From: Candidatus Omnitrophota bacterium
Lineage (GTDB): Bacteria; Omnitrophota; Gorgyraeia; Duberdicusellales; 4484-171
DNA length: 11,314 nucleotides
Direction: 5' to 3'
NCBI GenBank assembly: GCA_030601015.1
Contig: JAUVUO010000023.1
Location: forward strand, 1 to 11,314
Part shown: positions 4,106 to 7,065 of the stretch, in pieces
Layout of the letters: each line of letters starts with the position of its first letter
Position numbering within the stretch: position 1 is the stretch's first letter
Notes under the pieces: generated by a model
What the model saw: the letters and a program-made list of their open reading frames with translations, nothing else
What the model was told of the DNA's origin: nothing
The model's database searches: none
Made by a program: the position numbers and the translations under genes

Positions 4106-5191
4106 CTATATTTCTTTATTATTATTCAACCCTCGATTACGCAGCTCCATCTTTAGTTCTTCCTTTTTATCAGCATATTCCAATGCGTCATTAGGTGTTA
4201 TTTGTTCCGAAATTACGAGATCCAATAAACAGCTATTAAAACTTTTCATCCCATAAAGATCACCTGTAGCTATATATTTAGGTATTTCCCAAAACTTTTT
4301 TTCTCTTATTAAACGGGATATCGTAGGGCTTGCTATCATAGCCTCATAAGCGGGGATAAGTCCCATTTTATCAGAACAAGGTATCAATCTTTGAGAAAGT
4401 ACCCCTTTTAATAAATAAGATAACTGATCGATAACAGTTTTTTGCTGATGAGGAGGAAAAAAATTTAAAATTCTTTCTACTGTAGACGCCGCGTTTACAG
4501 TATGCATTGTAGAAACCACAAAAACTCCGGTTTCAGCCGCGGTCAAAGCAGCTCTACATGTTTCAGTGTCTCGAATACAACCGATATAAATAACATCAGG
4601 CGAATGCAGCGCGAATTGCCTTAAAGCATCTTGATAAGTCTCCACATCTCTCCCAAGTTCTCTTTGACTTATAACAGATAAGTTATCCTTAAACGTAAAC
4701 TCTATAGGTTCTTCTATAGTCAATATATGTCTGCCGAAATTATTATTAATATATTGAATCATACTGGCAATTGTTGTAGACTTACCGCTTCCGGTTATAC
4801 CTGTAAGAATCACCATACCTCTTCTTTTTTTACAAAAATCCTCTAACACCTGATTCGGAAGCTTTAACTCTTCAAAAGTAGGGATACGCAAATCTATTTT
4901 CCTTATAACTAATGAAGGCGCATTTCTCTGATAAAAAATACTCACACGAAAACGCCAAAATTCTTTATAACATAAAGCAAATTCACAAGCTTTATCTATT
5001 CTTAGTTTATCTTTATTTTTTTCAGTTAATAAATGCTCAATAATCTCATTTATATCTTCCGTAGTTAAAACTTGCTCAGAAATAGATTTAACTTCTGTAA
5101 ATATACGAGCTCTAATATCGCTATTTCCCCTAATAAACACGTCTGAACTCTTTTTCTCTATCATTAAATCTAAAATACTTTCTAATTTCAT
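4106..5191 (-). CDS. PilT/PilU-family type IV pilus ATPase, variant Walker B
   Basis: This is a hexameric secretion-type ATPase of the PilT/PilU group, which normally powers type IV pilus retraction at the inner membrane. In its 361 residues I see an N-terminal PAS-like region, Walker A GITGSGKST (131-139), the Asp box TIEEPIEF (158-165) and the His box STMHTVNAAS (227-236). The C-terminal helix LIREKKFWEI and the motif GMKSFNSCLLDL also fit the group. The Walker B segment reads IYIGCIRDTET, with Cys205 where nearly all relatives have Glu in GE(M/L/I)RD. Length and domain order are normal. The start follows an AAGGAG ribosome binding site with about 5 bases of spacing. GMKSF and the variant Walker B make an accessory PilU-like role as likely as PilT itself, so I give no symbol. 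No other pilus genes are in the window. The family is certain; the activity and substrate are not. Confidence 0.93.
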   Translation of the reverse strand: MKLESILDLMIEKKSSDVFIRGNSDIRARIFTEVKSISEQVLTTEDINEIIEHLLTEKNKDKLRIDKACEFALCYKEFWRFRVSIFYQRNAPSLVIRKIDLRIPTFEELKLPNQVLEDFCKKRRGMVILTGITGSGKSTTIASMIQYINNNFGRHILTIEEPIEFTFKDNLSVISQRELGRDVETYQDALRQFALHSPDVIYIGCIRDTETCRAALTAAETGVFVVSTMHTVNAASTVERILNFFPPHQQKTVIDQLSYLLKGVLSQRLIPCSDKMGLIPAYEAMIASPTISRLIREKKFWEIPKYIATGDLYGMKSFNSCLLDLVISEQITPNDALEYADKKEELKMELRNRGLNNNKEI

Positions 5192-5318
5192 ATTTACTCC
5201 TTATAAAAGTATTAGTATTGTCAAAAATAATTACTTAATTCTTATCTATCCGCACTAAATACAGAGCGTTTAATTAAAAATACGAGCCTCCCCCTTAAAA
5301 ACATAAACAACTAGAATA

Positions 5319-5368
5319 TTCACCACACCTGCCTGCCGGTAGGCGGGGAGAGCACAGAGTTCACAGAG
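5319..5368 (+). repeat. Left inverted terminal repeat, interrupted by a palindrome
   Basis: Read on the plus strand, TTCACCACA (5319-5327) resumes as GAG at 5348, followed by AG, CACAGAG (5353-5359), TT and CACAGAG (5362-5368). Removing 5328-5347 restores a 30-base repeat. It matches the right copy at every position except the four bases in the two 2-base spacers. The two copies face each other. Confidence 0.85.
5328..5347. repeat. 20-base GC-rich palindrome inserted in the left terminal repeat
   Basis: CCTGCCTGCCGGTAGGCGGG can fold on itself over its full length, with eight Watson-Crick pairs and two G-T pairs. It is strikingly GC-rich in an AT-rich gap. It splits the left terminal repeat exactly between TTCACCACA and GAG, with no loss of repeat bases. 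It resembles the short CCTGCCTGCC-type extragenic palindromes I recall from environmental bacterial genomes, but its family cannot be confirmed here. Confidence 0.8.
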
Positions 5369-5385
5369 AAAAACTAAAGCATAAA

Positions 5386-5519
5386 TCATTCTATTTTATT
5401 TTTCAATAATTTCACATTAAAATTAATAAGTAAACCGTTTTTTATCTTAGCTAATTCCATATAAGTTAGAAGCTGGGCTCCTCTATTATAACTTTTTCCG
5501 TTAATTCATTGATCTTCAC
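5386..5519 (-). pseudogene. GxxExxY-family protein remnant, internally deleted
   Basis: Reading the minus strand from a GTG at 5519, the frame gives VKINELTEKVI. This matches the typical start of GxxExxY-family proteins (about 125 residues; TIGR04256, related to the PDDEXK_3 group, function unsettled). That frame soon stops. From 5478 another frame reads AQLLTYMELAKIKNG and then LLINFNVKLLKNKIE, ending in TGA at 5388-5386. This is the typical C-terminal stretch of the family, usually EAQLL...YL...GLLINF. About 85 middle codons, including the GxxExxY motif itself, are gone. The two remaining pieces are in different frames, with the junction near 5478-5487. Both pieces are short, so the assignment rests on their order, spacing and the flanking repeats. 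It cannot make a working protein. Confidence 0.75.
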
Positions 5520-5548
5520 TCTGTGCCCTCTGTGAGCTCTGTGGTGAA
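5519..5548 (-). repeat. Right inverted terminal repeat
   Basis: On the minus strand this reads TTCACCACAGAG, CT, CACAGAG, GG, CACAGAG. It is the uninterrupted 30-base partner of the left repeat in inverted orientation. It touches the GTG at which the GxxExxY remnant begins, so the repeat directly borders the gene's 5' end. Confidence 0.85.
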
Positions 5549-5721
5549 TTCTTTCATTTTACCTTCATTTTACTTTTGACACTGCCGCTATTTATTTACT
5601 TTGTTCTAAAATAATACCATTTAATAGTATCACATAATCTTATTTTATTACCATATTTTTTGAGTTATTCTAACAGCTTATACCCCAAAAACCAAATATA
5701 TATTTAATTTTTTTATTATAA

Positions 5722-7065
5722 TCAATAGTTCTGCTTTTTAAACTCTTTCATTTTTTTATCGCGCAGTAATAAATGATATTTCCTCGCGAACCGATGAGCT
5801 TCATCTCTTAATCTTTGAATCAAATGCAAACAAGGGTTGTCTTTTGGAATAATCAAAGGTTTAAATGAGTCGGGAAACCAGATCTCTTCATTTTTTTTTG
5901 CTATACCTATTAAATCAATCTTTACACCTAAAAGCTCTAACTCTTCTTTGGCTCTATGAACATGCCCTTTCCCGCCATCAATAACAACTAAATTCGGTAA
6001 AGGTTTTTTCTCTTTTTTAAGGCGGCCGTATCGTCTTTTTACAATTTCAGCAATCATAGAATAATCATCTATTTTCTTAACAGTTTTTATTAAAAACCGG
6101 CGATAACTTCTTTTATCCGGGACAGCATCCTTAAATACAACAACTGAACCTGCCGAATCATACTCACCGAAAGAAGAAATGTCTATAGCTTCTATAGTCA
6201 ACGGCAAACTGGAAAGTTTTAAAATATTTTTCAATGCGAGGATTTCATGAACTTTAGGCCTGCCTGTATACAATACATCTATTGCCAATAGTTTATCCCT
6301 TAACACCGCAGCCTCTTCAAAATATTTTTTATCTGCCAACTTCTTCATATTATTAGTTAAATCCTCTATAAGATTTTTCCTCTCTCCTTTTAATATTTTA
6401 CATATATTTTCAATTCCGGACAGATACTCCGAACTACTAATTTTTTGAACACAAGGGGCCGGACAAAGTTTTAAATGAAAGAACAAACAAGCTTTTTGCG
6501 GTAAAACACTGCAAGTCCTATAAGGAAATATTTTTCTTATTGAATTTAAAGCATCTTTTAAAATTTTGACTCCGGGATAAGGCCCAAAATAAACATTACC
6601 CTTTACTTTTTTCGCGCGCGTAATAACAATACGCGGATATTTCTCTTTATTTATTTCAATATAAGGATAACTTTTACTATCCCTAAGGGCAATGTTATAT
6701 TTAGGCTTTTTTTCCTTAATCAATGCTGCCTCTAAAATTAAAGCCTGCTCCGGAGACTCGCATTCAATACAATCTATACTAGATACTTTTTCCATAAGAG
6801 AAGCAGTCTTAAAGGATTTATTAGCCCTATAATAGCTTGACAGCCTCTTCTTTAAAGAAGAGGCTTTTCCTACATAAAGAATATCTCCTTTTTTTGACTT
6901 CATTATATAAATACCCGATGTTTTGGGTAAACCTTTAAGGGCACTTTTAGTAAACTCACGGGTTTCATTAAAATTTATTCTTTTCCTATAATTTTTCCCG
7001 CGTCCGGACTTATCCTGATTTGCCGATGTCTCTACTTTTTGTTGCAATCTTACTTTTTTACCCAT
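5722..7065 (-). CDS. uvrC: UvrC-type excinuclease subunit, short form without HhH domain
   Basis: UvrC makes both incisions around a DNA lesion after UvrA/UvrB loading. The N-terminal GIY-YIG nuclease is visible: GIY (51-53), YVG (64-66), R74 and E112. Four cysteines (C185, C193, C201, C205) follow, spaced as expected for the iron-sulfur site reported in UvrC. Next are a UVR-type UvrB-binding helix pair (about 230-265) and the RNase H-like nuclease, with D295 (EAIDIS), D363 (VIDGGKGH) and H424 (RDEAH). It ends right after KYHLLLRDKKM, where the family continues into tandem helix-hairpin-helix motifs. It also lacks about 100 residues normally found between the UVR and RNase H parts. At 447 residues it is well short of the usual 600 or so. 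The only upstream ATG gives a basic leader of about 45 residues, has no clear ribosome binding site and overlaps murJ by 16 bases, suggesting translational coupling. All visible catalytic residues are present. Confidence 0.93.
   Translation of the reverse strand: MGKKVRLQQKVETSANQDKSGRGKNYRKRINFNETREFTKSALKGLPKTSGIYIMKSKKGDILYVGKASSLKKRLSSYYRANKSFKTASLMEKVSSIDCIECESPEQALILEAALIKEKKPKYNIALRDSKSYPYIEINKEKYPRIVITRAKKVKGNVYFGPYPGVKILKDALNSIRKIFPYRTCSVLPQKACLFFHLKLCPAPCVQKISSSEYLSGIENICKILKGERKNLIEDLTNNMKKLADKKYFEEAAVLRDKLLAIDVLYTGRPKVHEILALKNILKLSSLPLTIEAIDISSFGEYDSAGSVVVFKDAVPDKRSYRRFLIKTVKKIDDYSMIAEIVKRRYGRLKKEKKPLPNLVVIDGGKGHVHRAKEELELLGVKIDLIGIAKKNEEIWFPDSFKPLIIPKDNPCLHLIQRLRDEAHRFARKYHLLLRDKKMKEFKKQNY

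Follow-up and report, generated by a model that had tools for sequence, protein, structure and literature searches.

Inverted heptamer arrays around GxxExxY genes: a degraded copy inside a MITE-like element of an Omnitrophota bacterium and related units in many phyla

Between a gene for a PilT-family ATPase (4106-5191, minus strand) and the uvrC gene (5722-7065, minus strand), the 11,314-nucleotide stretch of DNA from a Candidatus Omnitrophota bacterium analysed here (the window) carries two facing arrays of the heptamer CACAGAG with remains of a GxxExxY gene between them, which raises the question of whether such arrays are the ends of a mobile unit and what moves it. The right arm (the 5' arm of the gene unit, 5519-5548, minus strand) is built of three CACAGAG heptamers spaced 9 bp apart, together with TTCACC. 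Read on the plus strand, CTCTGTG is found at 5519, 5528 and 5537 and the arm terminates in CTCTGTGGTGAA at 5548; on the minus strand it corresponds to TTCACCACAGAG plus two CACAGAG, exactly as the original prediction had drawn it. The left arm (the 3' arm of the gene unit, 5319-5368, plus strand) is a CACAGAG array in which TTCACCACA (5319-5327) is followed by an insert (5328-5349) and then by the remainder, in which CACAGAG is preserved at 5353 and at 5362. The insert is a strandless near-palindrome of 22 bp, CCTGCCTGCCGGTAGGCGGGGA, which lies within the outermost heptamer of this arm and splits it. The left arm is thus not the intact 30-base repeat that had been described, and because it holds the insert the two arms do not differ solely at four spacer bases. 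CACAGAGNNCACAGAG was matched three times in the window as compared to no match in 200 dinucleotide shuffles. The C151 copy (L018, about 1160-1182) carries a similar insert, also in its outermost heptamer; in these two element copies (window and L018) the near-palindromes, of the CCTGCCTGCCGGTAGGCGGG type, interrupt the outermost heptamer of opposite arms.

Two gene fragments were recognized between the arms. The C-terminal fragment (5401-5481, minus strand) covers 27 positions (85-111) of the TIGR04256 profile and scores 26.6 bits, which is below the family cut-off of 35; a 30-amino-acid piece of it gave 29.6 bits (E 7e-7). The N-terminal fragment NELTEKVI (about 5484-5510, minus strand) was identified by eye by comparison with the full copies C36 and G001:C63 and is without a family score of its own. 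The proposal that both ends of the gene lie between the arms is therefore backed by a sub-cut-off score for the C-terminal end and by eye only for the N-terminal end. By eye, a likely GTG start and the innermost heptamer overlap at the last base of the latter, in agreement with the contact between repeat and start codon that had been noticed earlier. The middle of the gene is deleted and the catalytic PD-(D/E)XK residues are gone with it. Judged by its sequence, this copy of an array-bounded GxxExxY unit is dead and has lost its interior. An Rfam scan of the window gave no match to known RNA families, and the unit lies between the pilT-family and uvrC genes, so it is not an insertion in 23S rRNA.

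Homology to other copies covers positions 5214-5586, a MITE-like outer element of 373 bp that carries the cassette (minus strand, gene-forward), so the span 5319-5548 given in the original prediction is too narrow. From sequence comparison, outer terminal inverted repeats are placed at 5214-5229 (AGTATTGTCAAAAATA, 3' end of the element, plus strand) and 5573-5586 (CTTTTGACACTGCC, 5' end of the element, plus strand). The inverted repeats reached beyond the arms read GGTAGTGTCAAAAG at the 5' terminus of the element and TTTTTGACAATAC at its 3' terminus, and in the window copy the arms lie 38 and 105 bp inside the element. Homologous copies of the element are present on C1, C36, C96, C128, C192, C183 and G001:C63. 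Exact 8-bp target duplications were found by eye at three of nine copies (C36, CGGCATAT; C128, ACGATGTA; G001:C63, AAGATTAT) and were not seen by eye at C1, C75, C96, C105, C183 and C192. The borders of the window copy, AATACTTT and TAAATAGC, display no recognizable target duplication (by eye). In G001, a genome of the same genus, the element is missing, and the gap between pilT and uvrC (G001:C77:14223-14308) measures 86 bp between aligned flanks versus 449 bp in the window, which provides the empty site that had been expected in a relative. The exact junction in G001 is not placeable because the intergenic sequence has diverged. As both homology and duplications extend beyond the arms, the arms were rejected as the termini of the element that moved in the window genome. 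Since homology and the 8-bp duplications are located at the outer repeats, the MITE-like element is the moving thing in this lineage. Both checks proposed with the original prediction came out largely in its favour, but the arms are not the borders of the element that spread here, which ends in the outer inverted repeats.

The array pattern was matched 22 times on 9 contigs of the window genome, and the reversed control gave no match. All six inverted CACAGAG pairs (C1, C36, C96, C105, C128, C192) surround a TIGR04256 match, one above and five below the cut-off (E at most 4e-5), as had been predicted for inverted pairs of the repeat. A single arm was detected on C103, C151 and C183; C103 and C128, which share a terminal flank, probably represent the same locus. 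Altogether nine TIGR04256 matches were obtained in this genome, three of them without CACAGAG arrays (one on C2, cut by a contig end, and an overlapping pair on C16). In C36 the gene is almost complete but contains one stop, and the remaining copies are internal deletions of varied size, with C75 reduced to just the outer ends plus a single heptamer. The full-length copies score far above the cut-off of 35, with 132 bits for C36 and 143.9 bits for G001:C63. By eye, the 3' terminus of this MITE, AGAAGATATTTTTGACA, is often located just upstream of a gene start (L047, L051, L054 and 5214-5229 in the window), and it includes TTGACA, which may be an outward-directed -35 box.

For the window copy taken alone, one might propose a plain non-autonomous MITE in which the GxxExxY fragment is chance cargo and the arrays are functionless. 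The outer inverted repeats, the three exact 8-bp duplications at other copies and the empty G001 site are consistent with this, and the internal-deletion variants are a further likeness to bacterial MITEs. The CACAGAG arms, however, are internal to the element, and the same arrangement of gene and arrays recurs in genomes and at loci without the outer repeat, and we consider chance cargo a very improbable explanation. That the window copy itself originated as part of a MITE is much surer than any reading in which a nuclease drives a mobile unit. In the Omnitrophota lineage, an array-bounded unit would have been captured within a MITE with the end sequence GGTAGTGTCAAAAG, and the window copy would have been spread by a transposase acting in trans and making 8-bp duplications, not by its arms.

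Beyond this lineage, contigs of named genomes were scanned with three close GxxExxY proteins and the best 80 of at least 537 confirmed matches were analysed; these loci derive from one subfamily query, are a non-random sample and include two of the query sequences (L160, L161). They belong to Omnitrophota, KSB1, Planctomycetes, Verrucomicrobia, Lentisphaerae, Bacteroidetes, Proteobacteria and others. When a permissive pattern (C[AG][CT]N[AG]AG, spacing 8-10, within 150 bp) was used, 51 of these 80 loci had inward arrays flanking the gene on both sides, 16 on one side and 13 on neither side, whereas random frames in the same loci had two-sided arrays in 3 and one-sided arrays in 87 of 2743 cases. 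Outward arrays flanked both sides in 8 of the 80 loci. Usually the border consists of ACCACGAAGNNCACGAAGNNCACGAAG directly before the start and its mirror image directly past the stop, and often both codons are touched. When the upstream flank was compared with the reversed downstream flank irrespective of any word, a score of at least 16 was reached in 70% of the 80 loci and in none of 150 control ORFs (sampled from 377), and the flank repeats of GxxExxY loci peaked at 9 bp. Flank pairs passed this score in 27% of cross-locus and 21% of same-strand comparisons, high values that are due to shared words and to some loci with hairpins on each side. From these comparisons, co-occurrence of gene and arrays in many phyla is evident.

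Among genomes searched around that of the window, 31 of 147 contain GxxExxY genes. Two-sided exact tandem heptamers C[AG]CAGAG were present only in L057 and L060 of the 29 loci returned from relatives. Of a hand-listed set of 26 full-length loci (27 given) from Omnitrophota relatives and the genus of the window, 21 pass the word-free test (cross-locus 12%), many of them with other words such as GATTACACAGATT, ACGCAGAT or CACGAAG. Carriage by phages or plasmids was rejected, as none of 600 pattern stretches from viral contigs was confirmed as a relative and 8 of 72,556 plasmid records had a match; a paper on an algal virus, in the part available, lists a GxxExxY protein.

The word used in the arrays follows the clade of the nuclease (CACAGAG, CACGAAG, CATGAAG and others). 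This is evident from a quick tree of the 80 proteins (117 columns), in which 41 of 76 inner branches were drawn open, and for which 69 of the 80 loci were labelled, L212 and L236 from outward arrays, with near-copies favouring clustering. The CACRGAG label required 4 changes on this tree as compared to a shuffled mean of 20.1 (none of 500 shuffles as low), all word labels together required 12 changes versus 33.3 (none of 200 as low), and array-less loci were unclustered (9 changes versus 10.4). A single Planctomycetaceae genome bin harbours the paralogues L165, which has CACGAAG arrays, and L182, which has CACAGAG arrays, and either one groups with its own clade. Within a locus, the two arms, about 350 bp apart, belong to the same word class in 49 of 51 loci, and the two mismatches (L199, L203) are one repeated locus. 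Outside the heptamers, spacers matched within loci in 26 of 62 cases versus a cross-locus mean of 19% (40 loci; none of 2000 shuffles as high). Seven loci were dropped by hand as near-repeats, five of them among the 40, and the match was then 22 of 55 cells versus 18% (35 loci; none of 5000 shuffles as high). The agreement between word and clade could follow from linkage alone, whereas the match between the two arms of a locus speaks for pairing, conversion or selection.

To our knowledge, no function has been established for GxxExxY genes. One open paper (PMC9756366) reportedly contains a single mention of PF13366, and an array word is said to occur in unrelated sequences of two open papers (PMC6143590, PMC8438044), as judged by title. 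The GxxExxY protein has a length of about 117 amino acids and is a stand-alone domain; for the G001:C63 protein PF13366 (PDDEXK_3) was the sole Pfam family reported (E 2e-41). In 55 aligned proteins E23, D63, E73, K75 and Q87 are invariant, forming the motif E-D-ExK-QxxxY. A structure predicted with a pLDDT of 98.0 gave no Foldseek match at an E value of 0.001 or better, the best matches being SSO0001 (E 1.1e-3, probability 0.99), which we take to be a Cas4, and lambda exonuclease (E 0.02). A sequence search of the PDB returned no solved relatives. The conserved residues, the model and these modest Foldseek matches suggest that GxxExxY is a RecB/Cas4-like PD-(D/E)XK nuclease, which differs from Cas4, lambda exonuclease and RecB-like enzymes in being a small stand-alone protein with array borders. 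A known defence protein was considered and rejected, as PADLOC matches to Cas4 were weak (E 0.003-0.02). Among the open papers searched, the GxxExxY name turns up in just two, with a single passing mention in either (neighbouring literature: PMC8934634, PMC12085832).

Genome comparison places units at a site in one species and finds them missing at the matching site in another. In Methylobacter sp. C15 a unit (L225) is located between the genes for the c and b subunits of ATP synthase F0, and the same site is occupied in Methylococcales STB_122 (L178, placed by flank homology). L238 has the downstream flank in common with this site, its upstream flank being lost at the contig end. Methylobacter marinus A45 is empty at the L225 site, with 31 bases between the aligned flanks versus 552. 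Conversely, the unit of M. marinus (L167), between an ApeP-like and a FabG-like gene, is missing at the matching site of Methylobacter C15 (G158), where 191 bases align unclearly. In two Verrucomicrobia genomes, units L209 and L231 occupy a homologous site in opposite orientations, with flank identities of 82.5% (606 bp) and 82.2% (1725 bp) and genes that are 89% identical; this may reflect either a flip or a double insertion. The genome of L231 contains a further unit, L220, with a gene 73% identical and no flank match near the units.

Orientation was scored for 35 of the 51 both-armed units, taking as neighbour on each side the longest open frame within 500 bp, without annotation. Most scored units lie in sense orientation between co-directional genes: 26 had both neighbours sense, 1 had both antisense and 8 were mixed, and when three repeated sites were dropped by hand the numbers were 23 versus 1 (p = 3e-6). 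L204 and L239 have matching flanks yet were scored differently, so the strand scoring is noisy. The sense bias suggests that selection favours units expressed from the host operon.

Such a placement also brings RNA into consideration. The units might be selfish insertions at the RNA level, in which the transcribed arms would pair, the resulting hairpin would be opened or removed by RNase III and an insertion in an operon would in this way be tolerated, with GxxExxY as a passenger or helper and the DNA moved by host recombination or other elements. In an RNA fold of the G001 unit the arms pair around the entire gene (MFE -114.5, no shuffled baseline), and the matching of spacers within loci, the sense placement between co-directional genes and the insertion in the ATP synthase operon are all compatible with this proposal. 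It has a precedent in the intervening sequence of Coxiella 23S rRNA, for which the available part of PMC4990558 describes a 28-bp terminal stem, an S23 gene preceded by tandem GACAGAT heptamers, and excision by RNase III. GxxExxY units resemble this intervening sequence in their terminal inverted repeats, the single small ORF, the heptamers and the tolerance in a vital transcript, and differ from it, as far as described there, in carrying GxxExxY instead of S23, in the period of 9 instead of 7 bp and in lying between protein genes. An RNA stem, however, forms either way round and alone cannot explain the sense bias, the tie between word and clade is explained by linkage only, and gene-less palindromes in MITEs (see below) are left unexplained. 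We therefore think it unlikely that the units spread in this manner.

The S23 family (S23/23S_rRNA_IVP) was rejected as a negative control, as it turned out to have inverted arrays of its own with a 7-bp period. GxxExxY words were present at one of 30 S23 loci, one-sided. From these 30 loci (of 42 places), five split or partial matches were dropped by hand, and an inverted-flank score of at least 16 was reached by 40% of the remaining 25 versus 3% in cross-locus comparisons, with 24% for same-strand pairs. The 25 stretches, from 12 genomes, contained no rRNA match and one tRNA match, and S23 genes that bear inverted period-7 arrays away from rRNA are in line with the RNA-level proposal. S23 array words (L320-L349) include GTGATTA, GTTCAAG and GTGTTTG. 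On G157:C13, an S23 and a GxxExxY gene are separated by about 320 bp and have different array words.

Arrays also occur as palindromes without a gene, which are numerous in some genomes. Matches to the array pattern, in which a three-heptamer array is counted twice, were obtained in all 12 named genomes searched, the reversed control being matched twice in total. Array versus gene matches amounted to 170 versus 1 in M. marinus A45, 207 versus 1 in Methylobacter C15 and 105 versus 2 in a Desulfobacterales genome, and Rhodopirellula, Stieleria, Mariprofundus and a Lentisphaerae genome had 5-9 array and 4-6 gene matches; array and gene numbers showed no joint trend in the 12 genomes. In M. marinus, 27 facing pairs 42-75 bp apart were counted by hand. 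High-copy arrays are centred in larger MITE-like repeats in the window genome (G000), G147, G157 and G022 (the last by eye), so their abundance may be due to other transposases. At five palindromes of Desulfobacterales (G157) without an outer repeat, no target duplication was seen by eye at the array borders. In M. marinus (L290-L318), the array-bearing MITE with GAGACTGTGAAAG ends seems to be nested in dispersed palindromes of the GGTTCCCACGG and GGGTACGC types, and the arrays of G022 (L134-L141) enclose several nested hairpins (by eye).

These data bear on a further alternative, according to which the palindromes are ordinary dispersed repeats amplified by MITE transposases and slippage, and GxxExxY, perhaps a defence gene, was caught between them and has no role in their spread. 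It accounts for the central position of high-copy arrays in larger repeats with other termini and for the uncoupled numbers of arrays and genes in the 12 genomes. Among the 147 relatives, moreover, 6 of 17 array-bearing genomes (incomplete assemblies) are without a gene match, including G022, which has 28 array matches and no TIGR04256 match. The repeat, which the original prediction had tied to GxxExxY genes, does in part occur apart from them, as G022 and the M. marinus palindromes demonstrate, and exclusiveness of the arrays to GxxExxY was rejected because of G022 and viral contigs. Against mere capture, a gene match was found in 11 of the 17 relatives with CACAGAG arrays versus 20 of the 130 without (Fisher p = 4e-5, kinship ignored). 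Capture also fits poorly with the arrays that closely flank the gene on either side at 51 of the 80 loci, across many phyla and often in contact with start and stop, with the lack of inverted flanks in 150 control ORFs and with the presence of these words at one of 30 S23 loci. We judge it improbable that GxxExxY is just a bystander.

By a slight leaning, we favour instead, as a whole statement, an array-bounded mobile unit of the REPtron type with a nuclease that acts on its own arms. REPtrons, as outlined in the available part of PMC8266576, consist of a TnpA-REP/RAYT gene with REP palindromes. The likeness to what is described there is one small nuclease gene between inverted palindrome-forming repeats together with dispersed gene-less palindromes of the same word. 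The enzyme there is an HUH tyrosine enzyme, whereas GxxExxY is a predicted PD-(D/E)XK nuclease and its arms are tandem with a period of about 9 bp; because the enzyme class differs, the GxxExxY unit is not a REPtron member. In the favoured reading the arms would fold, as a hairpin in single-stranded DNA or as a stem in RNA, the nuclease would act on arms of its own word and thereby copy or place the unit, and the unit would depend on the host operon for expression. That the nuclease moves the unit, and each step from nuclease to movement, we infer. A much wider claim would make GxxExxY the founding enzyme of a class of mobile elements found across bacterial phyla, in which this Cas4/lambda-exonuclease-like nuclease would recognize inverted tandem-heptamer arrays as ends, with one word per nuclease clade, and would send out, per genome, gene-bearing units plus dozens of gene-less palindromes, with S23 and its 7-bp-period arrays, including rRNA intervening sequences, as a sister system; this is a tentative proposal, and we rather doubt it in this full form.

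A nuclease linked to clade-specific arrays would provide a first testable role for the GxxExxY family. The link joins three puzzles, namely high-copy palindromes for which no mover is known, how rRNA intervening sequences arose and why small nucleases are scattered in operons. Should the nuclease read the arrays, the words found in nature would offer a ready series of specificity variants. To the best of our knowledge, and judged from open papers only, the link between GxxExxY and the arrays is new. The main text of PMC3733652, which deals with REP families, contains neither CACAGAG nor CACGAAG. Primers for an invertible promoter of Bacteroides fragilis with ON and OFF forms, as given in the accessible part of PMC3090145, are CACAGAG-array sequences, so there the arrays may border an invertible region.

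Three-heptamer arrays of both words were also encountered in IMG/VR viral contigs (at least 120 stretches and 91 stretches; L377-L456 and L497-L576), where they form palindromes or frame small ORFs other than GxxExxY (L442, L523, L556). Near the array units L186, L210, L194, L198, L206 and L215, attC-like direct repeats were seen by eye. Some Planctomycetes and Psychromonas units lie between such repeated sequences, as integron gene cassettes do, which suggests that these units may be integron cassettes.
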